64,000 bases of DNA, taken from Bacillota bacterium. Lineage in GTDB: Bacteria > Bacillota > Dethiobacteria > DTU022 > PWGO01. A program made the position numbers and the translations under genes. Below the pieces are notes generated by a model. The model was not told the origin of the DNA. It did not search any database and saw nothing but the letters and a program-made list of their open reading frames with translations. Within the stretch, counting starts at the first letter, position 1; the number at the start of each line of letters is the position of its first letter. This document shows, one piece after another, positions 7,487 to 35,438 of the stretch. The stretch lies in assembly GCA_012518215.1 (NCBI GenBank), contig JAAYSV010000019.1, forward strand, positions 1-64,000, in the 5' to 3' direction.

Positions 7487-7489
7487 AAT

Positions 7490-9234: not shown

Positions 9235-9236
9235 AA

Positions 9237-11258: not shown

Positions 11259-11386
11259 CCTTATTACCTCCATTTTTGGTTTGATTAAAATAATGATAAA
11301 AAAAGGCATAGCATAATTATACGTGAATCTTCTGTTATAGAGACAGGCAACAAGTTACCGTTTTGATTGGTAAAAAGTTACCAGGT

Positions 11387-11725: not shown

Positions 11726-11749
11726 TTTTTTCCTCGATTTCAGTTTATT

Positions 11750-12496: not shown

Positions 12497-12529
12497 AGGG
12501 TCACCTCAAAAAACAAATAATTTTCCGCA

Positions 12530-13663: not shown

Positions 13664-13667
13664 TTCG

Positions 13668-14096
13668 TCACCCCTGATCCATTATTGACTTTTTTCCGGT
13701 ATTTTTAAGTAGAGCTACCGCAAATTTTTTGTACCATTCCAAATAACCTAAAGCTTCTGCCTGTGCCAGAAGATAAGTTTTGCGATTTCCTTTGGTAATA
13801 GCGGTTAGAAGATCCTCATCATGAGGATAAGGCGCCGAGGGGTCATTGCGACAAAGCCATTCTTTGATAGCATTGTAAACTGTCATATGAGGATCATCAA
13901 AATTGCCTTTTGCCTGAGCCCGTAGTGTGGCAGCTGCCTGGCCCAATCCGTTAATAAGTATTGATGCGGGTGCATTTTCGGCATAAGCAACTATTTTATC
14001 CCGATCTTCGCCTTGGTATTTTTTTTCTGCTGCCTCGATCTTTTCCAAGGCATGTTTGGCTCGCTGCTGCTGCATGCTTTGAATTCGATTGCTCAA
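13668..14096 (-). CDS. cmr5: Type III-B small subunit Cmr5
   Basis: This small alpha-helical subunit of about 142 residues is part of the Cmr inner filament. It begins LSNRIQSMQQQRAKHALEKIEAAE, with the QxRAxxAL motif of Cmr5. I chose TTG 14096: it has GGAGGT 8 nt upstream and overlaps the cmr4 stop in a TTGA. A later ATG (14075) has no ribosome binding site. Confidence 0.9.
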   Translation of the reverse strand: MSNRIQSMQQQRAKHALEKIEAAEKKYQGEDRDKIVAYAENAPASILINGLGQAAATLRAQAKGNFDDPHMTVYNAIKEWLCRNDPSAPYPHDEDLLTAITKGNRKTYLLAQAEALGYLEWYKKFAVALLKNTGKKSIMDQG

Positions 14097-14938
14097 TCTG
14101 ATACACCTCCATAGATAAATGTTATGGCAGTCCAACCTTGCCCAATAGTCTCGTTGCCGCCAATCTGCAGGTAGGGATACTGGTCAAAAAAATCCGTTAA
14201 AGCGTTCAGGTGATCCTTTCCTCCGGGACGAGCTGCAAACAGGGCATAGAAGAGGGTATCAGTCGGTACTGTTTCTTCATACCAAAGATTCTGGCTGATT
14301 TTTTGCTTGTCCAGTAGGTTACGCGCATTTACAGATAAAGAGTACCTGGCAAAATATGAAAACTCATCATTGCTTACCACTACCAAGTTTTCAGCGAGGC
14401 GTTCCTTTATCGTGGAATGTCTGATCATCGGTTTGATCGCTTCGGCAAAAGGGACAGTTCCCGATCCTGATTCGATTATTTCAAAATGAGCATCCTCGAG
14501 GTATAGCCTTCCTTTCCCGGTGGCAATTGCTTCTCCCTCTTTTAAATCGGTTATAGCCGTGATATCGATTGTGCCGACCGATACCCCGGCCAAAGCACAG
14601 TCGCGTTGATAACGTTCCAGCAGATAGGGGCAGGTTACCCATTTATAGTGGCTGTTCAAAGAACGCACCGGTAGAAGTAGCAGGCGACCGTCGGAAACCG
14701 CGACGCAACCGGCATGTTTTTGGCTACCGAAGACCTGTTCCATGTCAATTTCTGAATTGTTGGTTATATTGTGTTGTTCAACAGTATCTTTTAGTGCGCC
14801 TTTCAGGCTGGAACCTACGATGACCGGATAATCGGTAGTTTTCTCGCGGGCTACCGGCAGATCGACCACTCCGCTAACCTGTCCGGTCCCGGGGTGTAAA
14901 TTGGTTTCTGCAAACATTCCCATTATTGCACTGGCCAT
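14093..14938 (-). CDS. cmr4: Type III-B backbone nuclease Cmr4
   Basis: This 281-residue Cas7-type subunit cuts target RNA at 6-nt intervals. The signature LHPGTGQVSGVVDLPVARE is present, with Asp26 at the position of the catalytic aspartate of characterised Cmr4 proteins, followed by YPVIVGSSLKGALKD. RNA cleavage should therefore be intact. I chose ATG 14938, which has GGGAGGT 9 nt upstream; TTG 14944 overlaps the cmr3 stop and is an alternative. Confidence 0.93.
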   Translation of the reverse strand: MASAIMGMFAETNLHPGTGQVSGVVDLPVAREKTTDYPVIVGSSLKGALKDTVEQHNITNNSEIDMEQVFGSQKHAGCVAVSDGRLLLLPVRSLNSHYKWVTCPYLLERYQRDCALAGVSVGTIDITAITDLKEGEAIATGKGRLYLEDAHFEIIESGSGTVPFAEAIKPMIRHSTIKERLAENLVVVSNDEFSYFARYSLSVNARNLLDKQKISQNLWYEETVPTDTLFYALFAARPGGKDHLNALTDFFDQYPYLQIGGNETIGQGWTAITFIYGGVSD

Positions 14939-14940
14939 AT

Positions 14941-16092
14941 TCAATCAACCTCCCATTTTCCAATTAATACTTGACCATAACCAAGAGAGTGGGACCCTTC
15001 ATTACCAACATGGCATCCATGAAGGGCTTCTATTTTTTCTTTATCTGTCGCTGCGGCTTCAAAAAACCAGGTGCTGCCAGGGGGCAGGCATGGTTGCAGT
15101 GGGCGAGGTTCGTTATTTGCCAGATCCCATCCTCCATGGAATTGCGGCTTGCCGATACAGGCACTGACACACCTGCCTGGAGCATTGGCGGGGCCTTCCC
15201 GAACAAGGAGTTCAAGCTGATCTCCATCGGAAAAAACAGATTGAGTGATCAGAGAGATAGTATAACGGATCTGCCCATCCTTTGTTTGCTTTAACGAGGG
15301 GCATGGGGGAAGCAGGTTTCGGTAATCATCAAGGGTAATAGAGTTGATTTCGATTCCTGCCAAGCGCCCTTCCCCGCCCAGGGGAACCACTCTCTGTTTT
15401 ATTTCGGGCCAATCGGGGGGTAACCCCTGAATGATGACACGTATTTTTAAATAGTACTCCGGCCGGATATGTCCGATGCGGTATAGGTTATGATCTTCGG
15501 CAGTTCGGGTTCCGGCGTTGCGTTTTAACCCTACACGAGGTTCCACACTCCACAATGATTCCTGGAAATATGCATCGTCTGTAGCAGGGGCTTTTCCTTT
15601 GGCAACAGAACTGTAGCCTGAACGGGTAAGGTAGAGATTTCCCGAATGGTGGGCTCCGTCCAGTTTTTCTTTTTTCCTGGGCAGGCAAACGTCTGGACCG
15701 AGGTCGCAGACGCATGTTTCGCCAGGTATGAGAAAAGTGGTTTTTATTGACTTCGGATCCGTTTTTGAATTGACCCCAGGCATCTTTTTGATTAATAGAT
15801 TCAATGGTGCCGGAAAAAGGAGCTTTTTATCCCATACCAGGTGTGGTCCCAACAGAGATAAAAGACCCAAATTTGTATTGTCACCAAGTTCATCGGGCCA
15901 ATTTTTATTTTGGCCGGGCCACCACCCACGAGCATTGGCCAGGGTGCTGCGGATCGCGCCTTGAAGAGTGCTTATGGGCGGGGGAAAGTGACTGATGATC
16001 CGGCTGTGTCCGCCTTCACCGGCATGGAAAGGCTGCCCGGTACGGAAAAATACAGTATCGATCAAAGTAAAATCCCAACATTGGAGGTTCAT
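14941..16092 (-). CDS. cmr3: Type III-B RAMP protein Cmr3 (Cas5-like)
   Basis: This 383-residue protein would bind the crRNA 5' handle next to Cmr2. Its start, MNLQCWDFTLIDTVFFRTGQ, and the following GEGGHSRIISHFPPPISTLQGAIRS are typical of Cmr3. The C-terminus has the glycine-rich SLGYGQVLIGKW segment. The start is ATG 16092 with AAGGAGTGG upstream, and it overlaps the cmr2 stop by 4 nt. Confidence 0.93.
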   Translation of the reverse strand: MNLQCWDFTLIDTVFFRTGQPFHAGEGGHSRIISHFPPPISTLQGAIRSTLANARGWWPGQNKNWPDELGDNTNLGLLSLLGPHLVWDKKLLFPAPLNLLIKKMPGVNSKTDPKSIKTTFLIPGETCVCDLGPDVCLPRKKEKLDGAHHSGNLYLTRSGYSSVAKGKAPATDDAYFQESLWSVEPRVGLKRNAGTRTAEDHNLYRIGHIRPEYYLKIRVIIQGLPPDWPEIKQRVVPLGGEGRLAGIEINSITLDDYRNLLPPCPSLKQTKDGQIRYTISLITQSVFSDGDQLELLVREGPANAPGRCVSACIGKPQFHGGWDLANNEPRPLQPCLPPGSTWFFEAAATDKEKIEALHGCHVGNEGSHSLGYGQVLIGKWEVD

Positions 16093-17996
16093 CGTTCCAC
16101 TCCTTTCTCCAACAGGAATTTTATTAAAAACAGGCTCTCGAGCTGCAACCTTTTTTTATCCTTGCATATTTTGCCTTCCTCATCCCTCCAGTAGTGATGA
16201 CAGAGTTCCAGCAATTGACGCATGGTTTTTTCAGCCTCAGTGTGATCTGTATCCGAGCCGCGGCTTTTAACATATTCAGCTGTAAGCAGTGCGTTCAGAA
16301 CTGAATTTGAAAATGTTGATAAATCTATATTCTGGGTAGTGAATAATGCCAACCGATATTGAATATTGTAGAAAAAACTATTGCTGAATTCTTTAAACTT
16401 TTCTTCATCAGCAGTTGCTTTCCCGAAATGTTGGATATATGGCAGGAAGTTATCTACAATTATTTCCCAGGGGGCGGACCAGCTCAACACCTTGCCCACA
16501 CTTTTCCAGACGGTTATGGCGAGGCTGTCCCGGCCGGTTTTAACCTTGGCGACTTCCGAAAGTAAACGCTGTCCCTCGTGGTACACTTCGGTGAGCGGTG
16601 TGGCAAAATGGGCATAAACAATTGCTCCGGAAATAGTGGCCAGGGATATATTATTAGCAGCGAATGCTTCAAGGTAAGCAGTGCGCAATCTTATTGCTGT
16701 TGTCAATGCATTTTCCAGGGGTGTCAAGGCAAGGACGTCGTCACCACCAGCGAAAACAGTGATTCCATTGCCTTCTTCAACGAGTAATTGCACCTGCTGA
16801 CTGAACATATTCAAAGACTTGCTGATCAGATTTGTATCAGTTTGATGTTTTTGTAGCAGCGCGCCGAGCCTATCACCATCCATAAGGAGCAGGGCATAGA
16901 ATGGCGAAGAGGGAGCGGCAAGATCTTCAAGCTTTTCTATCAGCTTTTTTCTGGTTTCTTCCGTATCCATGGAAGAGCTTGCCCGCCCATTCCAAAGATT
17001 CGAATTCTCAAGGGCGGCTTTGAAAAAACAATTACCGTCAAGAGAAGCGAACTCCCGGGCGTGGGGATGATCGGAAACCTCTTTTTTTAGAATTGGAAAT
17101 ATGTCCGGATTTTCACGACCCCTAGCTTCCGGAAGGTTAGAGGCAAGGTTGGCAAAAGATCTAGCTTTCTCGGCTTTGTCCTTGACCACTTTGGCGATCC
17201 AGTTAACGGCTGCGAGATAGGGAGTAGAAGGATAATTGATGGGGGCTTCTTTAATTATCTCCCTGGCAACGTGCGGAAAAAGCCGTTTTATCAAAGCGAT
17301 GGAACAGAGCCGTTCATTTTCATCCAGATCATAAAATATACCCGCCTGACTTTGCTGTCGTATGGATTTCCAGAACCCATCTTGTTTTTCTTTCTCATGT
17401 ATGCGTAAATAACCTGATAGTTCCTGAAGATCGCCGAAAAGGGTACACTTGTCACCGGGTTCAACCGGGGGCAGATGGCTACGCCAATTTTTGCGCTGAT
17501 CCAGTGCGCCGGCATCTTCGCTCAAGACCCAGTTTATTTCCCAGTAATTATCGATCTGCCTCTCCCATATTTCTGTGGTCAGGTCCCCCTGCCCACTTTG
17601 CTCGGCGAGGTATCGTTCCCAGATTATTTCAGCTATCATCTGCCAATTTTCTTTTATTGCTTCCTTACATACAACCGGAGCAAAACCTGCCGGAACCTTG
17701 GCGCGGAAACGGTTTGGCAGTGTAGCCACAATGTTGCTGTAGCCGTTGATACTGGTTGTTTTTCCTTCTCTACGGTCCATGATCATCTGCAAAAGCGGGT
17801 CGGTGATCAACTTTTTGCTTTCCGCGACAGCAGGTAAAACTAGACTGCCTCCTTCTTCAAGAACTACTGCCATGGCTTGTCCCGCAAGGAAGGAGAGCAA
17901 GAAGGAGCCTGTCCAGAAATCGCGTGTCTTTCGTGAGCGGGAAATAAAGCTCTGTACTGGCCCCAAGGAGAAATTCAAGGTTTCTATTTTGCTCAT
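16089..17996 (-). CDS. cmr2: Type III-B Cas10 (Cmr2) lacking the HD nuclease domain
   Basis: This 635-residue large subunit starts directly in the first palm domain (LGPVQSFISRSRKTRDFW near residue 10). The N-terminal HD domain of about 200 residues found in many Cmr2 proteins is absent, and I see no HD motif. The second palm has GGDD at residues 417-420 (VFAGGDDVLAL), so cyclic oligoadenylate synthesis is expected. Target-activated ssDNA cutting by this subunit is not expected. It overlaps both neighbours by 4 nt (ATGA). Confidence 0.92.
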   Translation of the reverse strand: MSKIETLNFSLGPVQSFISRSRKTRDFWTGSFLLSFLAGQAMAVVLEEGGSLVLPAVAESKKLITDPLLQMIMDRREGKTTSINGYSNIVATLPNRFRAKVPAGFAPVVCKEAIKENWQMIAEIIWERYLAEQSGQGDLTTEIWERQIDNYWEINWVLSEDAGALDQRKNWRSHLPPVEPGDKCTLFGDLQELSGYLRIHEKEKQDGFWKSIRQQSQAGIFYDLDENERLCSIALIKRLFPHVAREIIKEAPINYPSTPYLAAVNWIAKVVKDKAEKARSFANLASNLPEARGRENPDIFPILKKEVSDHPHAREFASLDGNCFFKAALENSNLWNGRASSSMDTEETRKKLIEKLEDLAAPSSPFYALLLMDGDRLGALLQKHQTDTNLISKSLNMFSQQVQLLVEEGNGITVFAGGDDVLALTPLENALTTAIRLRTAYLEAFAANNISLATISGAIVYAHFATPLTEVYHEGQRLLSEVAKVKTGRDSLAITVWKSVGKVLSWSAPWEIIVDNFLPYIQHFGKATADEEKFKEFSNSFFYNIQYRLALFTTQNIDLSTFSNSVLNALLTAEYVKSRGSDTDHTEAEKTMRQLLELCHHYWRDEEGKICKDKKRLQLESLFLIKFLLEKGVER

Positions 17997-19156
17997 GGCC
18001 AGACCACCACCTTGCTGCGCCTGAAAGCCGGTCGGTTAATGAAGTTGGTGACATTGTTGTAATCTACGTTGCAGTCCACGGTTGTTCTGTTGTGTCGTCC
18101 CGAAGAAATTTCGATTTTTACATCCCGTGGAAGAAAGACAGCCGGAAGCAAAGTTAGAACTGCCGCAAAATGATTTTTACCCAGGGCATGGATATGGATA
18201 AAAAGGGGGCTGGCACGACGATTATATTCTTTACTAGCAGGGCTTATACCGGCTTTGTCCCTGGTGGATATAAAGAAATAGTTATGAGGGAGCCCGAATA
18301 CTACCCGCCTTGGATGTGTATCTATTGAATTCCCCCGACAAAAACCCAACATCAAATCGTGGTCATCTGCAAAATTTTGTTCTGCTTCTGTATCGTCCGG
18401 TAGCACATGTTTGCCTTTATTATTTTCCCTGCCGTAACTTCGATAACAAAGCATTTCATAACCTATCCTGTTCAGGACCTCAAGTGCATCAGATCCGGTA
18501 AGGGCTATCCAAACGCGGCTATACCTGCTAAATGCTGAATACTCAGGCAATGCATCATTACTATTGTCAACTTTGATCTCGCGTAGCAAGGTTTGTAAAC
18601 ATGTACCAAGATCTTCAACAGTTTCAGGCATTTTCCAGAATTTATTTCCGTTGCAGGCTATGGATTCGAGTGAAAGTGAACCAAAACCTTTGCGAGAACG
18701 TGCCCCGGCCGCACCAAACAGGCCAAGTGCCTGCAAAGCAAGTGGTAAAAAGTGGGCGGCCTCTTCCGGTATTCCCTTTTTTGTTCGAATCTGCAGGGTA
18801 AAGCGACCACCTGGCTCTAGATGAGGACGCATAGCGTTACCCCTTTGGTCTATTACACCGTACCCCAGATAGCGTATTCCATTAAAATTTAGCCAGCTGC
18901 TCTCTTTTTTTTCGGATAACCCTTCTTGATCTCTTATCGTTAACAGAGTAGATGACTGACCTTTAGTGCTACCAAAAACAATGTTCTCTAGACTCTTTAC
19001 CGTGGACCATTTGCGTAGCTGGGCCAGTGCTATTGCCCGAAACCAGAATCGTAATAATCCTTTTATCGAGGACGGTCGAAGTTCTGCATGTTTGTTCGGG
19101 TTTGCTCCTCCCAAAAACAGGGGAGTTGTTACCCGGTAGGTTGCATCCCAATTCAC
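17993..19156 (-). CDS. cmr1: Type III-B RAMP protein Cmr1
   Basis: This 387-residue Cas7-like subunit would sit at the target 5' end of the Cmr complex. The N-terminus TPLFLGGANPNKHAELRPSS followed by IKGLLRFWFRA is the Cmr1 signature, with VFGS near residue 60. The start is GTG 19156 behind GGAGGT. It is the first gene of the cmr1-6 operon and overlaps cmr2. Confidence 0.93.
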   Translation of the reverse strand: MNWDATYRVTTPLFLGGANPNKHAELRPSSIKGLLRFWFRAIALAQLRKWSTVKSLENIVFGSTKGQSSTLLTIRDQEGLSEKKESSWLNFNGIRYLGYGVIDQRGNAMRPHLEPGGRFTLQIRTKKGIPEEAAHFLPLALQALGLFGAAGARSRKGFGSLSLESIACNGNKFWKMPETVEDLGTCLQTLLREIKVDNSNDALPEYSAFSRYSRVWIALTGSDALEVLNRIGYEMLCYRSYGRENNKGKHVLPDDTEAEQNFADDHDLMLGFCRGNSIDTHPRRVVFGLPHNYFFISTRDKAGISPASKEYNRRASPLFIHIHALGKNHFAAVLTLLPAVFLPRDVKIEISSGRHNRTTVDCNVDYNNVTNFINRPAFRRSKVVVWP

Positions 19157-19212
19157 GGTTTAGATACCTCCAGTCTCTTTAAAAAGTATTCAAGATATTT
19201 TTTTTGCTATCA

Positions 19213-19593
19213 TCACCTTTTTTCCCTCGCTCGTTCACGCATAACCTGCAGGTTAAGGATCTCGGCGGGCTCGAACCGAGGGGTAATTTCACCGGCGCCT
19301 GGACGCAGACGAAGTATTGATGGAAAATGGCCGATCCGGCCGTGCAACTGTGCCAGCAGGGCCGCTGCGCTGTAGTTCAGAGAAGGCAAATTGATCAGCA
19401 GCGGTTCTGTCTGCCATTCCCGCGGGCTCAGTCCGGCATGGTCCAGCATTGCTTCGATCTGTGCTTCGATAGGTTCGCCGGGATCGATCTGACTTGGTAT
19501 TTCGGTCACACTTGTTATTTCCAGGCCGGCGAGAACCTCTATTCCGTCCAGTTGGCTTTCGGTGAACGGATGGGCAAAATTCAGGATCTGCAT
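19213..19593 (-). CDS. CRISPR-associated Csx15-like protein
   Basis: This 126-residue protein begins MQILNFAHPFTESQLDGIE and contains WQTEPLLINLPSLNYSAAAL, LHGRIGHFPSILRLRP and EILNLQVMRERAR. The pattern matches what I recall of the Csx15 family, a small accessory protein of type III loci with no established activity. The start is ATG 19593; GTG 19599 would overlap the upstream stop. It sits between the CARF-HTH gene and cmr1, which suggests a role in the second-messenger branch. The function is unknown. Confidence 0.65.
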   Translation of the reverse strand: MQILNFAHPFTESQLDGIEVLAGLEITSVTEIPSQIDPGEPIEAQIEAMLDHAGLSPREWQTEPLLINLPSLNYSAAALLAQLHGRIGHFPSILRLRPGAGEITPRFEPAEILNLQVMRERAREKR

Positions 19594-19595
19594 TA

Positions 19596-20474
19596 TCACA
19601 AATCTCCCTTTGGTTCTTTCATCGTAAAGTAGGGTGAGAAACGGGCAATCAAGACATTACGATCCACGCTGTAATCAGGAAAATTCAACCATTCACGCAG
19701 TTTGTCGTAGATGTTGCACAACTGGTTGGCGACTGTTTGTACCCCTTTTCCCAGTGTGGAAGCAATGGAGGAATTTTCAAAACCCTGGCAGGCCAGGCGG
19801 GCCACCTTCCGCTCGGCGGGGGTCAACCAGTGCCGGATGAATTCATCCTGCCGTTTTTCTTCTTCTTTTTGTGTAAGCCTGTGATACCAGGACAGCACTT
19901 CTTGAGGATCATCAAGCTCGGTCACCGTTTGCATCAGAGTTCCAGCTTCCTTCCAGCGAAGAAGCGGTACCGGAACCAACAGGACCTGCTCACCGTTGAC
20001 AGCGTGAAGGTGACGGTTGACACCGGGCCGCCAGCCTTCCGTAATCAGATACCAAACCCGATCATCAGGACCGAATAGGAGTTGGGCTACGGTCATGGCT
20101 ATTACCCCCATTACCTTGCGGCCACCGGAAATGCAGAGGTGAAGGGGGCATCCCTGTTGACGCACCTTCCTGATTACCGAATAAAAGGTTCGCAAGAGTG
20201 CCCGCAGGTCATCTTCAGTTTTAAAATCCTTCACTGCAACGTCTCCGGTGGATATTGCTCTGGTATGAAAAGAGAGATCCGGGTAGTACCCTGTTTCAAA
20301 TTCGGCTTCAAGAACGGCCAGAGCTTCCCTTATAGCGGGGTATTCGGTGTATAAAACGGTAACTTCTTTGATCTTTTTCCCCCTGTCTATAAGGGCATCC
20401 AATGCGAGGGTTACTACCTGCGGCTCAACACCGAGAGTGGCAATCATTGTTTCAGGTTTGTTTTCCAGGCCCAT
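19596..20474 (-). CDS. CARF (Csx14/ring-nuclease-like) protein fused to a LuxR-type HTH
   Basis: This protein has 292 residues. I chose ATG 20474, which has GAGGAGG 8 nt upstream; an in-frame ATG 81 nt earlier has no ribosome binding site. Residues 8-160 resemble the CARF-like Csx14/NE0113 family: MIATLGVEPQVVTLALDAL at the start and CISGGRKVMGVIAMTVA, with the conserved SGGRK loop, in the middle. Residues 217-262 (LTPAERKVARLACQGFENSS and on) form a LuxR/GerE-type helix-turn-helix. The fusion suggests a transcription factor that senses cyclic oligoadenylate made by Cas10. It may also degrade that ligand, as some Csx14-like proteins are thought to. Both activities are inference. Confidence 0.75.
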   Translation of the reverse strand: MGLENKPETMIATLGVEPQVVTLALDALIDRGKKIKEVTVLYTEYPAIREALAVLEAEFETGYYPDLSFHTRAISTGDVAVKDFKTEDDLRALLRTFYSVIRKVRQQGCPLHLCISGGRKVMGVIAMTVAQLLFGPDDRVWYLITEGWRPGVNRHLHAVNGEQVLLVPVPLLRWKEAGTLMQTVTELDDPQEVLSWYHRLTQKEEEKRQDEFIRHWLTPAERKVARLACQGFENSSIASTLGKGVQTVANQLCNIYDKLREWLNFPDYSVDRNVLIARFSPYFTMKEPKGDL

Positions 20475-20650
20475 CCGGAGAACCTCCTCGACACATTTTA
20501 CCAAATTGTGATCGTTGTGGCAATCATCGACATTAAAAATGGAAAAGATGCCCATTCAAATTATCTGGTTACACTATTGGCTTTGAAAGATATTTTTAAA
20601 AAATAGCTTAAATACCAGGCGTACGGATGCCCGGTGGACCTGTTATATTT

Positions 20651-20914
20651 TTAGTAAATCCATTCTTCGCCGCCTTTCTGTATGCCGATTGATTTTCGTT
20701 CCGTATATTTCCGGCTACCCAGTATGTAAAATAGCAGTGAATCTTCATCCTCAACAATTATTTGATTCAGTTCGGAGAGCAGGGAGCGAAACGTTGCTTC
20801 CGTAAGTTCACCTTCAAGGACAGAATTCTGGACCCAGGTAAGGTAACGACGAGAAATCTTCAACACCTTGGCAACCCGCTTTACATTGATGTCATAGACC
20901 AGAATTACATACAT
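20651..20914 (-). CDS. cas2: CRISPR integrase subunit Cas2
   Basis: This 87-residue protein has the ferredoxin-like start MYVILVYDINVKRVAKVLK, with the conserved aspartate (Asp8), and the typical WVQNSVLEGELTEA segment. With Cas1 it forms the spacer integration complex. It follows cas1 by 22 nt. The stretch to the CARF-HTH start (20475-20650) holds no gene. Confidence 0.94.
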   Translation of the reverse strand: MYVILVYDINVKRVAKVLKISRRYLTWVQNSVLEGELTEATFRSLLSELNQIIVEDEDSLLFYILGSRKYTERKSIGIQKGGEEWIY

Positions 20915-20936
20915 TTGTTTATTCTTTTCACCTCAC

Positions 20937-21929
20937 TTACCAACGGCTGACAAAGGGCTGGTATACTTGTTCGCCGATCAGATGTTTTTCCAACTTGTAG
21001 ATTTCCATTCTGATCAATGTCTGGTAACTGACGTTACGTTTGAGCTGCCGATGATAAAAGGTGCTCATCAATTTATCTTCAAATTCCTGCACATAGACTT
21101 TACGCCCCTTGTCTTTTAACAGAACGGCTCCCCCGTGTTTTTCAAAATCCCTTTCTGTTAACATTCTCTTACCTATCAGGTTGAAAAGCACCCTGTCGGC
21201 CAGTATCGGTTTAAAAATTTCCGCAATGTCCAGATTCAATGTAAAGCGGCGAAAGTTGGTAGCATGCAAGAAACCGATCCGTGGATCAAGATGAGTCTTG
21301 TAAATTTCGGTTAATACTTTCATGTAGACAAGGGTGTTTCCAAAGCTGATCAGTGCGTTTAGCGGATCTTCGGGCGGGCGTTTGCTGCGCCCCTGAAATA
21401 AAAAATTTTGTTCGGTGAGGATTTGATTGAATGATTCGTAATAATGGGCCCTGGCATTCCCTTCAAATGCCATGAGTTCTTCAATGCTTTTAGAATCTGC
21501 ACTTTTTTTGGAAAGAGCGGTTATGGCCAAAATTTGTTTTTCAACATCCTTGCCCCGGTTTTGATAGTAGCGCAAGACCTGCAAAATGTTGGCCAGAGCT
21601 CCACTTACAAATTTTTGTGCAAGTTTCAAACGGCTTGGATAATCAAGGTAATGTTCAGTTTGTTTCAGGATCATGTAGCCGGAATTGTAATGTTCGCGGG
21701 GATAGAAGCTGCCGATATAGTGGCCATGGTAGCCCAAAAAATGCAGTATGACCTCATTTTCGTGAAGAAATTCCAGCAACTTTTTGTTAATATCCACTTC
21801 GCCAAAAATAAAGATGTCACGGATACTGGTAATGGGGAAATAACGGGCTTTTTCCGAAGTTTCAACAAAGATCGTATTCCCCTTGCGTTTTAAACGGCCA
21901 CTTTGAAAGAGATAAAGGGTTTTATTCAT
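20937..21929 (-). CDS. cas1: CRISPR integrase Cas1 (type I-B)
   Basis: This 330-residue metal-dependent integrase inserts new spacers. The catalytic residues are recognisable: Glu in MAFEGNARAHYYESF, His in RIGFLHATNFRRF and Glu in LDIAEIFKPILAD. The start is ATG 21929 with GAGGAGC upstream. It lies between cas4 and cas2, the common type I-B adaptation order. No second cas1 (for example an RT-Cas1) accompanies the type III genes. Confidence 0.96.
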   Translation of the reverse strand: MNKTLYLFQSGRLKRKGNTIFVETSEKARYFPITSIRDIFIFGEVDINKKLLEFLHENEVILHFLGYHGHYIGSFYPREHYNSGYMILKQTEHYLDYPSRLKLAQKFVSGALANILQVLRYYQNRGKDVEKQILAITALSKKSADSKSIEELMAFEGNARAHYYESFNQILTEQNFLFQGRSKRPPEDPLNALISFGNTLVYMKVLTEIYKTHLDPRIGFLHATNFRRFTLNLDIAEIFKPILADRVLFNLIGKRMLTERDFEKHGGAVLLKDKGRKVYVQEFEDKLMSTFYHRQLKRNVSYQTLIRMEIYKLEKHLIGEQVYQPFVSRW

Positions 21930-22007
21930 GATTCGCTCCTCATTGATTTTAATTTACTGGCTGGGAAGGCCGGACATTCAGGGTTTAAAGGGGGAAACCC
22001 TTTCGGC

Positions 22008-22511
22008 CTAAGCCCAGCACAATTCAGCATAAGCGCACTTTGAACACAACTTGATCTTCTCGGGAGGCGGGGGATATTCACGATTCAACAGAGCGGTAAT
22101 TTCAAATTTGATCTGTGCAACCTGTCGTGACAAGGTTTCATCAAGAAATAAACGTTCCTTGCGTCGCTCTTCAGGAAAAAGCAGTTCTCCTTCAGCTTTT
22201 ATTCCCATGGCCTCCAGTTCGTGCAGATAGAAGGCCAACTGCAATCTGGCCGCTTCCCGGGCACGGGAAGATTTTTTAACCTCCCCGATGACTAGTTGCT
22301 TGTTGCCGCGGCGAATCAGATCCAGGCAGAGGTGTCCTAGACGGATCTCTTTTTTTTCCCGCCCATAAGATTGTTGGTCAATAAGACGCCCCAGGGCCAA
22401 ATAGACATTGTCTTCATCCGGGCAGATCTGCCGTGAAGCAAGCCAGGCCTGGCGGGGGCAGACCATGTAAGCTTGAACCATACTTCCGGTGATGCGGATG
22501 TTATTTTCCAA
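22008..22511 (-). CDS. cas4: CRISPR-associated exonuclease Cas4
   Basis: This 167-residue RecB-like nuclease carries an iron-sulfur cluster and trims and selects prespacers. The first cluster cysteine is Cys18 in VCPRQAWLAS and the last three lie in CSKCAYAELC at the C-terminus. The nuclease core shows LCLDLI and IGEVKKS (D...ExK). The start is TTG 22511 with GGGAGGAG upstream. It is the first gene of the cas locus, 78 nt before cas1, and that gap contains an inverted repeat (AGGGTTT/AAACCCT). Confidence 0.92.
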   Translation of the reverse strand: MENNIRITGSMVQAYMVCPRQAWLASRQICPDEDNVYLALGRLIDQQSYGREKKEIRLGHLCLDLIRRGNKQLVIGEVKKSSRAREAARLQLAFYLHELEAMGIKAEGELLFPEERRKERLFLDETLSRQVAQIKFEITALLNREYPPPPEKIKLCSKCAYAELCWA

Positions 22512-22874
22512 TAAAACGGGTCTCCTCCCGGTATCATTCTATTTTTCAACCAATGACAACTTATTCTAAATCAGGATTTGAGCCAAGTGCCTTTCATACC
22601 GAATAAAATAGTAGTTTGTTACTAAAATCTATACCGAAAAATAAGTATGAGGTTGCTTGATCAGCAATAGGGAATGGGTGCACAACAACAAAGGAAAATC
22701 AGAAGTGTTCCGGGTTAACCGGAAGAAGCAGATATTATGAGGTTTAAGGGGTATTTTTCAAAATTAAGCCGAAAATCTAAAAGATTTACAACGACACCGA
22801 CAATAATTTACCATCACGGATAGGCTAGAAAACCCATTAAACTAAACTCAGGCATTAGCGAGATCGTTAATATA
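22512..22874. other. Non-coding stretch between cas4 and the CRISPR array
   Basis: These 363 bases are AT-rich and carry no supportable gene. They must contain the cas promoter if the locus is not driven by read-through from the array; I could not settle on one. A repeat-like sequence at 22803-22832 is listed separately. Confidence 0.6.
22803..22832 (-). repeat. Possible degenerate CRISPR repeat at the leader-distal end
   Basis: The segment ending ATCACGGATAGGCTAGAAAA matches the last 20 bases of the plus-strand repeat at 14 positions, including TAGGCT. It sits 42 bases before the first intact repeat, close to one spacer length (35-37). A decayed repeat at this end fits a leader on the opposite side. 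The outer ten bases match poorly, so this is tentative. Confidence 0.35.
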
Positions 22875-24158
22875 GTTTCAATTCCTCATAGGTAGGCTGG
22901 AAATTGAGATATGCGACACAGAGCTTCCAGAGGCAGATAGGTTTCAATTCCTCATAGGTAGGCTGGAAATAAATTCGCGGATATGCTGTCTTTGGAGGTT
23001 TTACAGTTTCAATTCCTCATAGGTAGGCTGGAAATCACATCGAAAATGATTGATGCTGACCTTCCCCTTGGTTTCAATTCCTCATAGGTAGGCTGGAAAT
23101 GGCAATTACCGGATAAAAGGGCGGGTGAAATAATGGTTTCAATTCCTCATAGGTAGGCTGGAAATGGACTACGACTACTGGTGCATGAGAACATACCTGC
23201 AGTTTCAATTCCTCATAGGTAGGCTGGAAATGGCTTTCACCGGCTCGATCTGGCTGTTATGTATAATCGTTTCAATTCCTCATAGGTAGGCTGGAAATAC
23301 GTGGGGACGCAGGAACTAAACGAAGCTTTGAGTTGTTTCAATTCCTCATAGGTAGGCTGGAAATTTTCCGGTTCGTATAATTGATTTGAAATAATAACGG
23401 TTTCAATTCCTCATAGGTAGGCTGGAAATCTAAAACCGCCGGAGGTATTTTTATGAAAAAGTTTTGTTTCAATTCCTCATAGGTAGGCTGGAAATTAGGT
23501 GACGGGAGTCTTTTTGACCCTGTTAAAAGGGTTTCAATTCCTCATAGGTAGGCTGGAAATCCCCTTTATTTTTTCTAGATTGCCTTCAGGCGATCTGTTT
23601 CAATTCCTCATAGGTAGGCTGGAAATCGGAGATGCGTCAGCAAGGGCTGATTGATAGCCTCGAGTTTCAATTCCTCATAGGTAGGCTGGAAATAGATTTA
23701 CCATTTATTGAATATGTGAGTTTTAGACCAGTTTCAATTCCTCATAGGTAGGCTGGAAATAGGGATCTTGCGGAGCCCCTGTTGCGCCGGTGCCGTCGTT
23801 TCAATTCCTCATAGGTAGGCTGGAAATAGCATCCTCACGCTGATAGGGAAGGATTTATGTGTCGTTTCAATTCCTCATAGGTAGGCTGGAAATGTTATCA
23901 CCACGAACTGACGCAAAAAGAGGTTGGTGGTTTCAATTCCTCATAGGTAGGCTGGAAATTTTTATATATTGTGTGGAAACACGTTGCTGTTTCTGGTTTC
24001 AATTCCTCATAGGTAGGCTGGAAATGCGCTTCCCCCGGGGTGTCCACTCCTTCAATATAATCGTTTCAATTCCTCATAGGTAGGCTGGAAATCGGAAAAA
24101 ATGGAAGACTTCTCCGTGTCCGATTGGAGTTTCAATTCCTCATAGGTAGGCTGGAAAT
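22875..24158 (-). CRISPR. CRISPR array, 20 repeats and 19 spacers
   Basis: There are twenty copies of a 30-bp repeat, which on the plus strand begins GTTTCAATTCCTCATAGG and ends TAGGCTGGAAAT. I saw no variant among them. The 19 spacers are 35-37 bp and all differ. Read on the minus strand the repeat ends ATTGAAAC, the 8-nt 5' handle left by Cas6 in many type I-B and III systems. Transcription therefore probably runs on the minus strand, toward cas4, with the newest spacers near 24158. Repeat starts include 22875, 22941, 23006, 23071, 23136, 23202, 23269, 23335, 23400, 23466, 23531, 23597, 23664, 23731, 23798, 23864, 23930, 23996, 24063 and 24129. Confidence 0.98.
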
Positions 24159-28306: not shown

Positions 28307-28794
28307 TCCAGAAGCCCCCTTGGAATATTTTGTTTCATGGATACCCGAAGATATTCTCGATGATTTTGATATTCTTGATTATATCACGCTTTTTTAGCCC
28401 GACAGGTTGACAAAATAAATATAGGGGAAAGAGACCCAAGCAGCAGCAATTATCTCCTGAAAACGGGGAAGCACAACATGCATTGTGCGTGGCTCGTTGT
28501 GCCGGCAGGGTGAGCATCGTTGACTCCCTCGCAATGGTTGCAAGATGGCATCCTGTTTCCGCCTGGCGGGTCTTCTTCCCGGCCTGCACTGCACTCCGGT
28601 GGAGGCAGCTGACGGGGGCATTCATACAATTGACGTTCATAACCTAGAATTGCTATAATTGCATCGCATGGACAATTTCCTGTCTTTGGAAATGAAATCG
28701 ACTTCAATGCCGGATGGAGCATCGAAAAATATGTTTTGAAACTGCCGGGATTGTTACGATTATAAAAATACCGGAATACGAAGGAGGGCGGAAA
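28307..28794. other. Intergenic stretch with no recognised feature
   Basis: These 488 bases contain only short frames without ribosome binding sites or recognisable family motifs. The last bases carry AAGGAGG for the lipoprotein gene. I see no RNA gene or repeat. Confidence 0.5.
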
Positions 28795-29277
28795 ATGTCA
28801 AAACGAATTGGAGTATTCCTGTTTACTGTCGTGGTGTTCATCTTGATGATCGTTCCGGTCATTGGCTGTTCGCCGCCGGATGAGTTGTTCCAGACGAAAA
28901 GTGAAGAGGAAAACGGGGCGCTGGAGGCGGAGAAGTTGGAATTGCCGGGGGGGCCTCACCAGTATCCCTATCCGGAAGGCCTGGTTCTGCCGCAGGTTTT
29001 TATCATGTCAAAGGATTACTACGATCAGGCTGACCTTGATGCCTTGCAGGGCAATGTGGTAGAGCCTCTGGTCGCTCATTTCGATTCTGAGGGGCAGACC
29101 GTTGTTTCCATTTTTATCGACAACGATAACAGGGAAGGAGCCGAAAAAAACTATTTTCTGATCGAAGTCATCATCTCCAAAAATGACGGGTCAAACGAAC
29201 CTATTGAATTGGAGTTCATGCATTACAAGGTTGATGGGCAGATACCGGAATGGGAAATGATAGACATCATGGAGTAG
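28795..29277 (+). CDS. Predicted lipoprotein of unknown function
   Basis: This 160-residue protein starts MSKRIGVFLFTVVVFILMIV and has a lipobox PVIGC, so it is probably lipidated on Cys25 and anchored outside the membrane. The mature part is acidic, with ELPGGPHQYPYPEGLVLPQ and a mixed alpha/beta domain. I chose ATG 28795 because AAGGAGG precedes it; the frame opens earlier without a site. I do not recognise the family. The gap to xseA (29278-29468) holds no supported gene. Confidence 0.75.
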   Translation: MSKRIGVFLFTVVVFILMIVPVIGCSPPDELFQTKSEEENGALEAEKLELPGGPHQYPYPEGLVLPQVFIMSKDYYDQADLDALQGNVVEPLVAHFDSEGQTVVSIFIDNDNREGAEKNYFLIEVIISKNDGSNEPIELEFMHYKVDGQIPEWEMIDIME

Positions 29278-29468: not shown

Positions 29469-30686
29469 ATGGATGATAAACGGATCTTCTCCGTAACTGA
29501 AGTCAACAGTTATATCCGGGGTCTGCTCGAGACCGATAGTATCCTATCCCATATCACGGTGGCCGGAGAGATTTCAAATTTCACTCATCATCGTTCGGGC
29601 CACATGTACTTCACTTTGAAAGATGAGCGTTCCTCGTTGCGTTGCGCCTTTTTCAAAGGAGACAATTTCCGTTGCAAATTTCTGCCTTCCGATGGGATGA
29701 ACGTCTGGGGCATCGGTCGCATTTCTGTCTACGAGCCTTCTGGCCAGTACCAGCTCATTGTCGATGAGCTCGAACCTGCAGGGATGGGCTCACTTTATCT
29801 GGCTTTTGAACAACTTAAAAAACAGCTCGAGCGGGAAGGGCTCTTCCATCTGCGGCACAAGAAACCGCTTCCTGCTTACCCGCGCCGGGTGGGGCTGGTG
29901 ACTTCCCCGACCGGGGCCGCCCTGCAGGACATTCTGAGCACCGCCGGGAACCGCTTTGCTCCCGTTCAATTTCTGCTGGTTGAAACTTTGGTGCAGGGAA
30001 CAAGGGCTCCTGCCGATATCGTGGCCTCTATCCGCCGCCTCAACCGTCTGGGCAATGTTGATGTTATCATCCTGGCTCGCGGGGGAGGTTCGTTGGAGGA
30101 TCTCTGGGCTTTCAACACCGAGGAGGTGGCCCGGGCCATATTCGCTTCCGCTGTCCCCATCCTTTCGGCTATCGGGCACGAGACTGATTTTACCATCTCC
30201 GACTTTGTGGCCGATCATCGTGCACCAACCCCTACCGGGGCGGCATCGCTCCTTTTCCCGAAACGAGAAGATCTTCGCTGGCAGATCGGTTCCCTGAATG
30301 ACAGGCTTTCAGCGGGCCTGTGGAGGCGGGTGGAGAGGGAGCGGCAGCGGCTCGAATATATCATCACCGAACGTTTTTATCGTCTTCCGTACGAGTATAT
30401 CGGGCGGAAAGAGGAACAGCGGCGGGAATTATCCTCGCGGCTAAAACAAACCTTTCTCTACCAGCTCCAGGAAAAAGCTTACCGTCTGGCCAATTCTACC
30501 ACCAGGCTGGAAGGCCTGAGTCCCTTCAAGATCATGCAACGAGGTTACAGTTTCTGTCGCGATGAAGATGGCCGCCTGGTAACGTCCGTGGCCGATATGC
30601 GTGAAGGCGAACGGCTGGAGCTAACTTTCCTGGATGGGAAGGCCTGGGCACGGATAGAGAAGATAATAAAAGGGAACAGTTCTTGA
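29469..30686 (+). CDS. xseA: Exodeoxyribonuclease VII large subunit XseA
   Basis: This 405-residue large subunit degrades single-stranded DNA with XseB. It has an N-terminal OB-fold (ITVAGEISNFTHHRSGHMYFTLKD), the catalytic domain with GLVTSPTGAALQDIL, and the motifs ARGGGSLEDLWAFN and AIGHETDFTISDFVADHRAPTPT. The length is typical. The ribosome binding site is weak. It heads the xseA-xseB-ispA run. Confidence 0.97.
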   Translation: MDDKRIFSVTEVNSYIRGLLETDSILSHITVAGEISNFTHHRSGHMYFTLKDERSSLRCAFFKGDNFRCKFLPSDGMNVWGIGRISVYEPSGQYQLIVDELEPAGMGSLYLAFEQLKKQLEREGLFHLRHKKPLPAYPRRVGLVTSPTGAALQDILSTAGNRFAPVQFLLVETLVQGTRAPADIVASIRRLNRLGNVDVIILARGGGSLEDLWAFNTEEVARAIFASAVPILSAIGHETDFTISDFVADHRAPTPTGAASLLFPKREDLRWQIGSLNDRLSAGLWRRVERERQRLEYIITERFYRLPYEYIGRKEEQRRELSSRLKQTFLYQLQEKAYRLANSTTRLEGLSPFKIMQRGYSFCRDEDGRLVTSVADMREGERLELTFLDGKAWARIEKIIKGNSS

Positions 30687-30745: not shown

Positions 30746-31042
30746 ATGACCGGGGGCAAACAGAAGATCTCTTTCGAGAAAGCGATGGAGAAACTGGAAA
30801 CTATCGTCAAGAAGATGGAAAGCGGGAAACTCTCGCTGGAGGAGTCGCTGGAGTTGTTCAAGGAGGGGATCGATCTGACGACGGTCTGCAGGGAACTGCT
30901 CGCCGAAGCGGAATTCAAAGTTAAACATCTCCTGAAAAACGAGGAGGAGGGCGGCCGGGATGTCGATGACAATAAAGACTTGCCGGTTGAAGGCAGCAGT
31001 TATGACGGGGACAGCGATGATACCTACAGATATGAAGAATGA
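30746..31042 (+). CDS. xseB: Exodeoxyribonuclease VII small subunit XseB
   Basis: This 98-residue partner of XseA is recognised by ISFEKAMEKLETIVKKMESG and LSLEESLELFKEGIDL. It is somewhat longer than the usual 75-85 residues because of an acidic C-terminal tail. The ATG follows GGGAGGAG. It sits 59 nt after xseA. Confidence 0.94.
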   Translation: MTGGKQKISFEKAMEKLETIVKKMESGKLSLEESLELFKEGIDLTTVCRELLAEAEFKVKHLLKNEEEGGRDVDDNKDLPVEGSSYDGDSDDTYRYEE

Positions 31043-31100: not shown

Positions 31101-31140
31101 GAATCGAGGAATCGGGGAATCGAGGCATCGAGGCATGGTG
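31101..31140 (+). repeat. Five tandem 8-bp units at the ispA start
   Basis: The units read GAATCGAG, GAATCGGG, GAATCGAG, GCATCGAG and GCATGGTG. The array runs into the first codons proposed for ispA. A change in unit number would alter the leader and the distance to the upstream gene. Confidence 0.7.
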
Positions 31141-32088
31141 GAAATGAAAAAAAATGTGGACGACAAACGAGTCCGTGATCGGGCCCGGACGGAACTTGGC
31201 AGAAAACTTGATGATTGGAAGTTCATGGTCGATGAATATCTGGGCAGGATCATCGACCGAGCTTCTCTGCCCGAACCGATCATCGCCGAGGCCATGAATC
31301 ATTCCTTGCTGGCGGGAGGGAAGAGGTTGCGCCCGCTGATCTGCCTGGCGGCTGCCGCCACGTTCGGCCTGCATGCGGAGGTGATCATGGAGGTTGCATC
31401 CGCAATCGAACTGGTACATACATATTCGCTTGTGCACGATGATCTGCCGGCCATGGACGATGACGATTACCGGCGGGGGCAGCCAACCTGCCATCGTGTC
31501 TACGGGGAAGCTACTGCCATTCTGGCCGGGGATGCGCTGCTCACGCTTGCTTTCGAGTTGCTGGCGCAGTTTGGCCTGAAAGAAGGAGGCGCACATCACG
31601 AGCAGAACGCCCTGCGCCTGGTTCATGAACTGGCTTCAGCAGCGGGGTACAGGGAGCTTGTATGCGGGCAGACGATGGATCTGGCTTCCGAGGGGCGCGA
31701 TGATCTATCGCCGCGGGAAGTAGAAGAGATCGGGCGCCGCAAGACGGCGGCCTTGATTCGCGCGGCGGCAAGGATGGGAGCTATTGTCGGTGGAGCCAAC
31801 ATCGGGGAACTGGAAAGCATCTCTCGATATGGCCTGTTCATCGGCATGGCTTTTCAGATCGTCGATGATATGCTGGACATGGAGGGTGATCCCGAGCGGA
31901 TGGGCAAGAAAACGGGTACCGACCTCAGGAAGGGCAAGGCGACCTACCCGGTGTTGTGGGGCAGGGAAAAGGCTTGCAGGAGGGTGATGGTGCTTTATCA
32001 AAGTGCGATGAAGGAACTGGAACAGTTTGGTTCACGTGCCGCAGCCCTGCGATTTCTGGCCGGCCGGGTTGTCTCCCGGCAGGATTGA
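31135..32088 (+). CDS. ispA: Polyprenyl (farnesyl) diphosphate synthase IspA
   Basis: This 317-residue enzyme condenses IPP with allylic diphosphates to make farnesyl or geranyl diphosphate. The first Asp-rich motif is HDDLPAMDDDDYRRG, the second is QIVDDMLDMEGD, and GGKRLRPLI lies between the N-terminus and the first. Starts at 31135 or 31144 (ATG) are both possible; the second has GGTGG just upstream and lies outside the 8-bp repeats. It sits upstream of the OLE RNA and dxs, the usual isoprenoid setting for that RNA. Confidence 0.95.
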   Translation: MVEMKKNVDDKRVRDRARTELGRKLDDWKFMVDEYLGRIIDRASLPEPIIAEAMNHSLLAGGKRLRPLICLAAAATFGLHAEVIMEVASAIELVHTYSLVHDDLPAMDDDDYRRGQPTCHRVYGEATAILAGDALLTLAFELLAQFGLKEGGAHHEQNALRLVHELASAAGYRELVCGQTMDLASEGRDDLSPREVEEIGRRKTAALIRAAARMGAIVGGANIGELESISRYGLFIGMAFQIVDDMLDMEGDPERMGKKTGTDLRKGKATYPVLWGREKACRRVMVLYQSAMKELEQFGSRAAALRFLAGRVVSRQD

Positions 32089-32139: not shown

Positions 32140-32168
32140 TTGTTGCTGACTACGTTCTATGTTATAAT
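32140..32168 (+). promoter_or_regulatory. Promoter of the OLE RNA
   Basis: A TTGTTG -35 (32140-32145) lies 17 bp before a perfect TATAAT -10 (32163-32168). Transcription would start near 32175, at the left edge of the structured RNA region. Confidence 0.7.
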
Positions 32169-32174
32169 ACTTTG

Positions 32175-32815
32175 ACACAGGGCATAAGTGATGCAGTATT
32201 CTAGTTGAAGCCGCTGTTTCCAAAAACGGGCCTAAAAATCCGTTGAGGGCACATCAATGAAGTCCCTGGTGCTGGCTGCTGACGCCCAGTCGGGGGTCGG
32301 TGCTGGGGGTTAAGGAACTGGGGCGATCTACAAAGGCATGTAGGCGTTGACCCTAGCTCCGTGGAGACCCAAGTGGGTGGTGTATTGCTGTAGTGGCAAA
32401 GGACTACTGCTTGGGGTGAACCTGTATGCGGTGAAAGCTGTGTGCAGCGTAGCCTGCCTTGAGGTGGTGCGGGTGGAGGAAGCCGCTTGCTACTTAAACC
32501 CCCACTGCAAAAGAGGCTAGGAAGCAGAAAGGCTTTATCGAGGAAATCTCCTAGGCTGTTTCCGGGCGCGGAAGGTATCTTCGGGGTTAAAGTACGAGCT
32601 AAGTGGCAATCCAGCTCTGCTGTTGGCAACATGGCGGGGATGATCGTAATAGGAAACTTCCTGATCGGCAACGACAGGTGATCATCCGGGAAATCCTGCT
32701 GGACCTAAGCCGTAAAGTTTACCGGGGTTATCATCACTTATGCCTGATTTATATAATCGGTCTGAGCTCCATGGGTTTTCGGCTTGCTTCCTGTTCCCGG
32801 ATCCCCGGGGGCGTT
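32175..32815 (+). ncRNA. ole: OLE RNA (ornate, large, extremophilic)
   Basis: This gene-free stretch of about 640 bases lies between ispA and a small membrane-protein gene, followed by dxs. Its length, location and partner match the OLE RNA class, a roughly 600-nt structured RNA that binds the membrane protein OapA. Structure is visible: GGATGATC (32638-32645) pairs with GATCATCC (32680-32687) over an internal AGGAAACTTCCT-type hairpin, GTAAAGTTTAC can form a small hairpin, and CCCGG/CCGGG (32796-32809) followed by TTATTTTT may end the RNA. It has its own promoter. Both ends are estimates. In Bacillus halodurans OLE ribonucleoproteins affect cold, ethanol and magnesium stress responses. Confidence 0.85.
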
Positions 32816-32834
32816 ATTTTTGGGGTGAAGATGT

Positions 32835-33413
32835 TTGGCACGAAAAAAAGGAAATGGGGCCGGGAACGGCTGGGTCATCCGCATGGCCATCGGGACTTTT
32901 CTTCTGGCAATTGTCTTCGGGGTTGCTTCTCAACTGCTTCTTCAGAAAGTATTTTCACTTTATCTGGCGTTGCTAATATTGATAGTAGTAGTATTGATCG
33001 GGATTGTTTTCGATGGTATCGGCACGGCAGCGGCGGCGGCGAAGATGGCCCCGTTGAATGCCAAGGCTTCCCGAAAAATTGAAGGGGCGCGCAAGGCGGT
33101 GCAGCTGGTCAAGAATGCAGATCGCGTGGCCAACTTCTGCAATGATGTTATCGGCGACATAGCCGGCATCGTCAGCGGGGCGGTCTCCGCGGTGATCTTC
33201 TTCAATCTCTTTTTTTTCGAAGAAGAACAGGAGTTTTACCTGCGTATTCTGCTTACAGCCGCGGTGGCCGCTGTCACGGTGGGGGGGAAGGCCTGGGGCA
33301 AAAACAGGGCCATCCGCAAATCAACGGAGATCATGCTGGCTCTCGGCCTGTTGCTGACAAGGCTGGAAAGGATTTTGCCGTGCAGGTGGGGCGTTTTCCG
33401 GAAGGATAAATAG
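32835..33413 (+). CDS. oapA: OLE-associated membrane protein OapA
   Basis: This 192-residue protein has about four hydrophobic segments (near residues 15-37, 42-62, 105-130 and 135-155). Between helices two and three lies the conserved run AAAAKMAPLNAKASRKIEGA, then NADRVANFCNDVIGDIAGI, which fits the RNA-binding and membrane-core region of OapA. The start is TTG 32835 with GGGGTGA upstream, immediately after the OLE RNA. OapA forms a membrane ribonucleoprotein with OLE RNA. The identification rests on context and motif, not on a search. Confidence 0.85.
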   Translation: MARKKGNGAGNGWVIRMAIGTFLLAIVFGVASQLLLQKVFSLYLALLILIVVVLIGIVFDGIGTAAAAAKMAPLNAKASRKIEGARKAVQLVKNADRVANFCNDVIGDIAGIVSGAVSAVIFFNLFFFEEEQEFYLRILLTAAVAAVTVGGKAWGKNRAIRKSTEIMLALGLLLTRLERILPCRWGVFRKDK

Positions 33414-33518: not shown

Positions 33519-35438
33519 TTGGCCGGAATACTGGATCGTGTGCAGGATCCATCGGATCTGAAAAAAATGCAAAAAGAAGAGCTGGATCAACTCTCTGCCG
33601 AAATCAGGGATTTCCTCATCGAGGTGGTCTCCGCAAACGGGGGACATCTTTCTTCCAGCCTTGGGGCAGTGGAGCTGGCGGTGGCCCTTCATCATGTTTT
33701 CTCATCACCCCGGGACAAGATCATCTGGGACGTTGGCCATCAGAGCTATGCCCACAAGGTGCTTACCGGAAGGAAGAAGGTCTTCGACACCCTGCGCATG
33801 CAGGGCGGCATCAGCGGTTTTCCCCATCGTGAGGAGAGTGAACATGACGTTTACGGAACCGGTCACAGCAGCACTTCGATCTCGGCGGCGCTCGGGCTGG
33901 CCGAGGCCCGGGAATTGAAGGGGGAAGATTGTCACGTCATTGCTGTCATCGGCGATGGCGCTCTTACGGGAGGAATGGCATTCGAGGCTTTGAATCATGC
34001 CGGGGCTCTGAAACGGGACATGATCGTGATACTGAATGACAACAACATGTCCATCGATCATAACGTGGGCAGCATCTCTTCCTATCTGGGAAGGATAAGA
34101 ACCAGCCCGGGTTATACCAGGCTCAAAGAGAAGATCACTCTCTTTCTGCACCATGTACCGCTTATCGGCCCGTTGATTGCGGGTGCAACGTCCCGCCTGA
34201 AATCGGCCCTGAAACAATTGCTGATCCCCGGGATGCTCTTTGAAGAACTGGGGTTCACCTACCTGGGGCCCGTGGATGGCCATGACATCAAAAAACTGAT
34301 TGCAATTTTGCAGAGGGCTGCCCGGAAGAAAGGGCCGGTTTTGATTCATGCCCTTACACAGAAAGGGAAAGGGTATATTCATGCGGAAAAAAACCCCGCC
34401 GAGTTCCATGGCGTCGGCCCATTCGATGTTTCCAGGGGACTGTCATCCCCGGTTTTACAACGGGCGCCTACCTACACGGAAGTGTTTGGCCGGACCTTGT
34501 TGGAACTGGCCGAAAAGGATGAACGGCTGGTGGCCATCACGGCGGCGATGACCGCCGGCACCGGGCTCGAATCATTTGCGGCCAGATTTCCCGAGCGTTT
34601 CTATGATGTGGGCATCGCCGAGGCACATGCGATTACCCTTGCCGCCGGCCTGGCAGTGGGTGGGATGAAGCCGGTGGCGGCAATTTACAGCACTTTCATG
34701 CAGCGGGCTTACGATCAGGTTATCCACGAGCTGGGTGTGCAGAAAATTCCCGTCGTGCTGGCCCTCGATCGCGCGGGCATCGTCGGGCGGGATGGTGAAA
34801 CCCACCAGGGTGTCTTCGATCTTTCTTACCTCAGGCACATTCCCAACCTCTCCATCATGGCCCCCAAAGACGAGAATGAACTGTGTCACATGCTCAAGAC
34901 GGCCTTCGATCATGAAGAAGGGCCGGTGGCCATACGTTATCCGCGATCTGCGGGCGAGGGTGTCTCCCCGGAGAACCCCCGGCAGTTGCCCTGGGGCAGA
35001 GCGGAACTTCTGCGCCCCGGCAATGACCTGCTTTTGCTGGCCCTGGGCTCGATGGCCTGGCCTGCGCGGAGGGCGGCGGAACGTCTGGCTGCCGAGGGGG
35101 TTGATGTGGCGGTGATAAATGCCCGTTTTGCCAAGCCTCTGGATGAGGATCTGATCCTGGATCTGTCCCGGAAGTGCCAGGGGGTCATGACCGTGGAGGA
35201 AAATGTACTTGCGGGTGGTTTCGGCAGCGCCTGCCTGGAGCTTCTGGAGGAAAATAAATTGCCGGTCCCGGTCAAGCGGCTGGGGATCGGTGATGAATTT
35301 GTGGCGCATGGTAGCCGGGAAGAGCTTCTTGCCCTGCACCGATTGGACGAAAAAGGCATCTACGAGGAAGCGGTCTCTTTTGCGGCCCATATCAGAGGGG
35401 AAGAGAGCCCGGTAGCCGGCAGCCGGTTCATGAAGTAG
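33519..35438 (+). CDS. dxs: 1-Deoxy-D-xylulose-5-phosphate synthase Dxs
   Basis: This 639-residue thiamine-diphosphate enzyme makes DXP from pyruvate and glyceraldehyde-3-phosphate, the first step of the MEP isoprenoid pathway. The motifs are GHSSTSISAALGLA, the TPP-binding GDGALTGGMAFEALNHA with NDNNMSID, and DRAGIVGRDGETHQG in the pyrimidine domain. The TTG start at 33519 gives MAGILDRVQDP; the ribosome binding site is distant. It follows oapA. Confidence 0.97.
   Translation: MAGILDRVQDPSDLKKMQKEELDQLSAEIRDFLIEVVSANGGHLSSSLGAVELAVALHHVFSSPRDKIIWDVGHQSYAHKVLTGRKKVFDTLRMQGGISGFPHREESEHDVYGTGHSSTSISAALGLAEARELKGEDCHVIAVIGDGALTGGMAFEALNHAGALKRDMIVILNDNNMSIDHNVGSISSYLGRIRTSPGYTRLKEKITLFLHHVPLIGPLIAGATSRLKSALKQLLIPGMLFEELGFTYLGPVDGHDIKKLIAILQRAARKKGPVLIHALTQKGKGYIHAEKNPAEFHGVGPFDVSRGLSSPVLQRAPTYTEVFGRTLLELAEKDERLVAITAAMTAGTGLESFAARFPERFYDVGIAEAHAITLAAGLAVGGMKPVAAIYSTFMQRAYDQVIHELGVQKIPVVLALDRAGIVGRDGETHQGVFDLSYLRHIPNLSIMAPKDENELCHMLKTAFDHEEGPVAIRYPRSAGEGVSPENPRQLPWGRAELLRPGNDLLLLALGSMAWPARRAAERLAAEGVDVAVINARFAKPLDEDLILDLSRKCQGVMTVEENVLAGGFGSACLELLEENKLPVPVKRLGIGDEFVAHGSREELLALHRLDEKGIYEEAVSFAAHIRGEESPVAGSRFMK

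Follow-up and report, generated by a model that had tools for sequence, protein, structure and literature searches.

A full-length OLE RNA gene with a predicted, conserved promoter beside oapA in an uncultured Bacillota genome

The interval between ispA and dxs in the genome of an uncultured Bacillota bacterium raises the question of whether it holds a complete OLE RNA gene, and whether that RNA could be produced from a promoter of its own and act with the partner proteins described in other hosts. OLE is, to our knowledge, among the largest RNAs of bacteria to which no biochemical activity has been assigned. Members of the class are expected to be abundant, stable RNAs of about 600 nt that act at the membrane, their loss causing sensitivity to cold, alcohol and Mg2+. 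The window, the whole stretch of 64,000 nucleotides that was analysed, had been described from its letters alone in an initial annotation that proposed an OLE gene, a separate promoter, a 3' hairpin and an adjoining membrane partner. These proposals were followed up by covariance and profile searches and by comparison with related genomes of the order, and the features are collected in Table 1.

A search with the Rfam OLE covariance model (RF01071, cmscan) gave a single match spanning model positions 1-616 with 452.9 bits (E=1e-129), against the Rfam cut-off of 50 bits, and assignment to the OLE class, proposed without database searches, is thereby upheld over the whole model. The search of the genome (2.14 Mb, 97% complete) returned one copy only, and the OLE strand folds more stably than each of 100 dinucleotide shuffles (z=-4.73). 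The pairing of GGATGATC with GATCATCC noted earlier is real and forms a helix in the Rfam structure; with a span of no more than about 40 bases, it is not really long-range. The proposed gene order, xseA-xseB-ispA-ole-oapA-dxs, is borne out by Pfam matches to the neighbours, and is followed by genes for an FtsJ/S4-domain methyltransferase and an NAD kinase. Directly upstream of xseA, at 28714-29277, is a gene for a predicted lipoprotein of 187 residues with no Pfam match. Farther off, a large CRISPR region occupies 4988-24158, and its array of 20 repeats (GTTTCAATTCCTCATAGGTAGGCTGGAAAT, at 22875-24158) adjoins cas4, cas1, a Cas_NE0113 gene, a Cmr module (Cmr2/Cas10, Cmr3, Cmr5 and RAMPs), cas6, a TM1802 gene and cas3; this composition suggests a locus that combines types I-B and III-B.

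Table 1. Features of the ole locus and partner genes elsewhere in the genome (window positions unless another contig or locus is named)
Feature	Coordinates	Strand	Basis
xseA (exonuclease VII)	29469-30686	+	PF02601 / PF02609 matches to the xseA-xseB pair
xseB (exonuclease VII)	30746-31042	+	PF02601 / PF02609 matches to the xseA-xseB pair
ispA (polyprenyl synthetase), 5' of ole	31135-32088	+	PF00348, E=2.6e-64
Predicted ole promoter	32140-32168	+	sequence; near-same place in 46/47 OLE loci of the order
OLE RNA gene, full length	32172-32753	+	cmscan RF01071; single genomic copy; folding z -4.73
Terminator-like hairpin (TGTTCCCGGATCCCCGGGGGCG then TTATTTTT), between ole and oapA	32792-32813	+	pattern scan
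oapA (assigned), membrane protein of 192 residues, partner of OLE	32835-33413	+	ORF; DxxxD; alignment; weak CNNM match
dxs, 3' of oapA	33519-35438	+	PF13292, E=4e-122
OapB orthologue, 91-residue KOW-type, between map and infA	L035 3956-4231		PDB 7K9B match
OapC orthologue, 83-residue L7Ae-type, between rpoC and rpsL	L036 923-1174		YbxF match
bS21 gene, same genome, outside the window	G000:C8:228052-228216		

Two other readings of the stretch itself bear on this identification. The match could represent an OLE of incomplete function, either degenerate or belonging to variant 1 or 2 as in TANB77 and RF39, and its score does lie toward the low end of full-length scores within the order, with one hairpin shortened to 4 alignment positions where the model has 41. 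All 616 model positions are nonetheless matched, the 3' domain has its two GGCAAC loops, the remaining stems are there, and OapB and OapC, which are mostly missing from the variant clades (PMC11332333), are encoded in this genome; the variant reading is thus very improbable. Even less credit is due to the idea that the stretch is a protein-coding gene and not an RNA gene. A frame of 156 codons is indeed open on the minus strand (32201-32671), yet in relatives the longest antisense frame within the OLE core varies between 48 and 167 codons, so that frame length is not conserved, whereas RNA structure and sequence are. The antisense frame was rejected as a gene on this account, the earlier description of the stretch as gene-free holds, and a coding function has next to no likelihood. 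The locus is an ordinary, complete OLE copy, and as such adds a member to a known class without introducing a new type of system.

Identification of the membrane protein as OapA was approached through its features, because neither Pfam nor NCBIfam yielded a curated OapA model for a profile comparison; the assignment rests on motif, synteny, co-occurrence with OLE and weak CNNM similarity, which together bear out the partner originally named. The protein begins at a TTG codon and carries KMAPLNAKASRKI. Its DxxxD motif is formed by D104 and D108 within FCNDVIGD (residues 101-108), and FCNDVxGD is invariant in the OapA alignment (A1), in which the two aspartates correspond to D100 and D104 of H. 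halodurans OapA, positions where changes are strongly harmful (PMC9723947). A match to the CNNM family (PF01595, 17.4 bits, E=0.0036) lies below the Pfam cut-off of 28.4 bits, as in the sub-threshold resemblance published for OapA (PMC11332333). The membrane domain is in this sense distantly similar to that of the MpfA/CorB-type CNNM Mg2+ transporters, but the CBS and CorC domains are absent. Compared with known OapA, the protein is a membrane protein of the same size class, also located 3' of ole, and apart from the TTG start nothing of note sets it apart; by sequence and position the protein behind ole is OapA.

Whether OLE has a promoter of its own is a question that the present sequence answers poorly and the order answers well. 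The candidate promoter comprises a -35 TTGTTG (32140-32145), a 17-nt spacer and TATAAT (32163-32168), with an extended -10 TG at 32160-32161 (TG-T-TATAAT, 32160-32168) and a predicted transcription start at about 32174-32176. Taken by itself, TTGTTG-N17-TATAAT makes 9 of 12 consensus matches, a score reached by 14.5% of shuffles (p about 0.15), and the element is missing from the listing of a consensus scanner because its -35 is weak. When 47 OLE loci of the order were anchored on the OLE 5' motif GTGNTGCAGTATTCTAGT and scored out of 12, an extended -10 (TGn with TATAAT, TATGAT or TATACT) was found 5' of the motif in 46, as were the 17-nt spacer and a score of at least 9 (each 46/47); random 70-mers from the same loci scored as high in 53 of 940 cases. 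The distance from the end of the -10 to GTGNTGCAGTATTCTAGT is 13-25 bases in all loci but one, and column counts over 34 aligned loci favour TTGAG as the -35 and TRTGYTATAAT as the -10 element, the spacer between them being variable. The 46 promoter-bearing loci come from related genomes, spanning about 30 genera, and are not independent observations.

The promoter claimed earlier is therefore judged to be real, convincing by comparison across the order and not by its own sequence. It might still be supposed that OLE arises only from a long xseA-xseB-ispA-ole-oapA-dxs transcript and is freed by processing, the promoter-like sequence being unused. Such an account draws on the large, presumably processed operon in which H. 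halodurans ole sits (PMC9723947), and on the failure of the element in this genome alone to exceed shuffles. It is unlikely, given that TGnTATAAT and a TTG -35 recur at 17-nt spacing in 46 of 47 loci across some 30 genera, their distance to the start of OLE being nearly constant while the surrounding sequence varies. Production of OLE independently of ispA, as suggested earlier, is supported comparatively, although this was already reported for H. halodurans, where ole has its own promoter in addition to its operon location; the conserved promoter extends that fact and is not new in kind (PMC9723947).

The 3' boundary is less well marked. A terminator-like hairpin does exist between ole and oapA, and a promoter-like TTATCA-N18-TATAAT is found nearby (32728-32757), but neither class of element rises clearly above shuffles. 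In many relatives only about 15-35 bases separate the end of the OLE model (32753 here) from oapA, too few to accommodate a hairpin of this kind. Its proposed role as the end of OLE is accordingly unsupported by relatives, and it appears to be a local feature at best, of uncertain function.

The distribution of OLE and OapA across the order was examined in 71 genomes, with OapA in 59, OLE in 57 and both absent from 11; in related loci where both were assembled, OLE is followed by OapA. Absence of OLE from 14 genomes probably reflects assembly gaps in which the locus is missing, since dxs was full-length in none of the 6 of these 14 genomes examined for it, being absent or truncated at a contig start, and several incomplete OLE matches stop at contig ends. 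Two apparent exceptions to the pairing were rejected: in G058 the contig ends 24 bases after an OLE seemingly without OapA, and a second OapA in G003 is adjoined by a cut-off OLE. G003 has two distinct ole-oapA-dxs copies, on C93 (L064) and C128 (L065), one of them cut by a contig end, and the second copy is possibly a duplication or a contaminating strain. Contigs of other genomes (G001, G013, G015, G018, G045, G059 and more) often break within the conserved 5' region of the OLE gene, and metagenome assemblies of this kind probably under-count OLE as a result.

Genes for the other known partners were located in the same genome. The OapB orthologue has 7K9B, "OLE-associated protein B", as its sole PDB match (E=3e-9), and the OapC orthologue matches YbxF (E=6e-13). 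No true MpfA or other CNNM protein besides OapA was found in the genome, in line with the reported anticorrelation of OLE and MpfA (PMC11332333). Nine genomes of the order (G010, G017, G018, G027, G038, G039, G044, G048 and G058) nevertheless have both OLE and a strong CNNM match (>100 bits, MpfA-type), and the exclusion is therefore not strict.

The locus thus shares with ole-oapA of H. halodurans a full-length RNA directly before oapA in an operon-like cluster, a promoter of its own, and OapB, OapC and bS21 in the genome. It differs in its host, a relative that is uncultured and represented by a genome assembly, in the terminator-like hairpin between ole and oapA, and in the P6 stem, where H. 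halodurans has CCUCCU as an anti-Shine-Dalgarno mimic (PMC12054373). In the present RNA the 3' strand of this stem is GACCCUAGCUCC, without the mimic. Among 55 P6 loci of the order, two of which are overlapping copies of one site, CCUCC occurs in 4 and CCUCCU in none, and the mimic is not conserved in the order; the adjoining GGGC/GACCC pairs are kept, here and across the loci. These counts agree with the published mutants M1-M3, in which the mimic was altered and bS21 binding was retained, and they suggest that the conserved G-C pairs of P6, rather than the mimic, are what matters.

This genome thus contains the OLE gene with its conserved promoter, oapA and the genes for the other partners, and the comparison supports transcription of OLE from that promoter. 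The preferred reading, held at a probability of about 95%, is that OLE would be made from its own promoter, with any read-through added, beside oapA, and would act with its partners as a dimeric stress-response ribonucleoprotein at the membrane. An extended -10, housekeeping-type promoter would yield a full-length RNA of about 580 nt, to which read-through from the xseA-xseB-ispA operon may add. By extension from published work on H. halodurans and C. acetobutylicum, the RNA would dimerise (OLE forms RNA-only dimers in vitro; PMC12286853), OapA dimers would hold it at the membrane via the P4a region, OapB would bind the P12.2/P13 region, OapC a k-turn near P5 and bS21 P6, and the complex would protect against cold, alcohol and Mg2+ stress. 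A point against this reading is the absence here of the anti-Shine-Dalgarno mimic for bS21, with the adjoining G-C pairs kept. A further proposal, tentative and held at rather less than even odds, is that OLE in the order acts chiefly as a housekeeping RNA with transcription of its own, from one extended -10 promoter conserved in nearly every genus, and that bS21 is recruited to it without the mimic; if true, the model of ribosome mimicry based on H. halodurans would not apply generally.

In summary, the locus provides an added OLE member and a useful promoter comparison, by which an own promoter known from H. halodurans is seen as a conserved feature across the whole order. The results suggest that two published generalisations, strict exclusion of OLE and MpfA and the anti-Shine-Dalgarno mimic, do not apply here, and well-placed new members such as this one aid comparative work on OLE.
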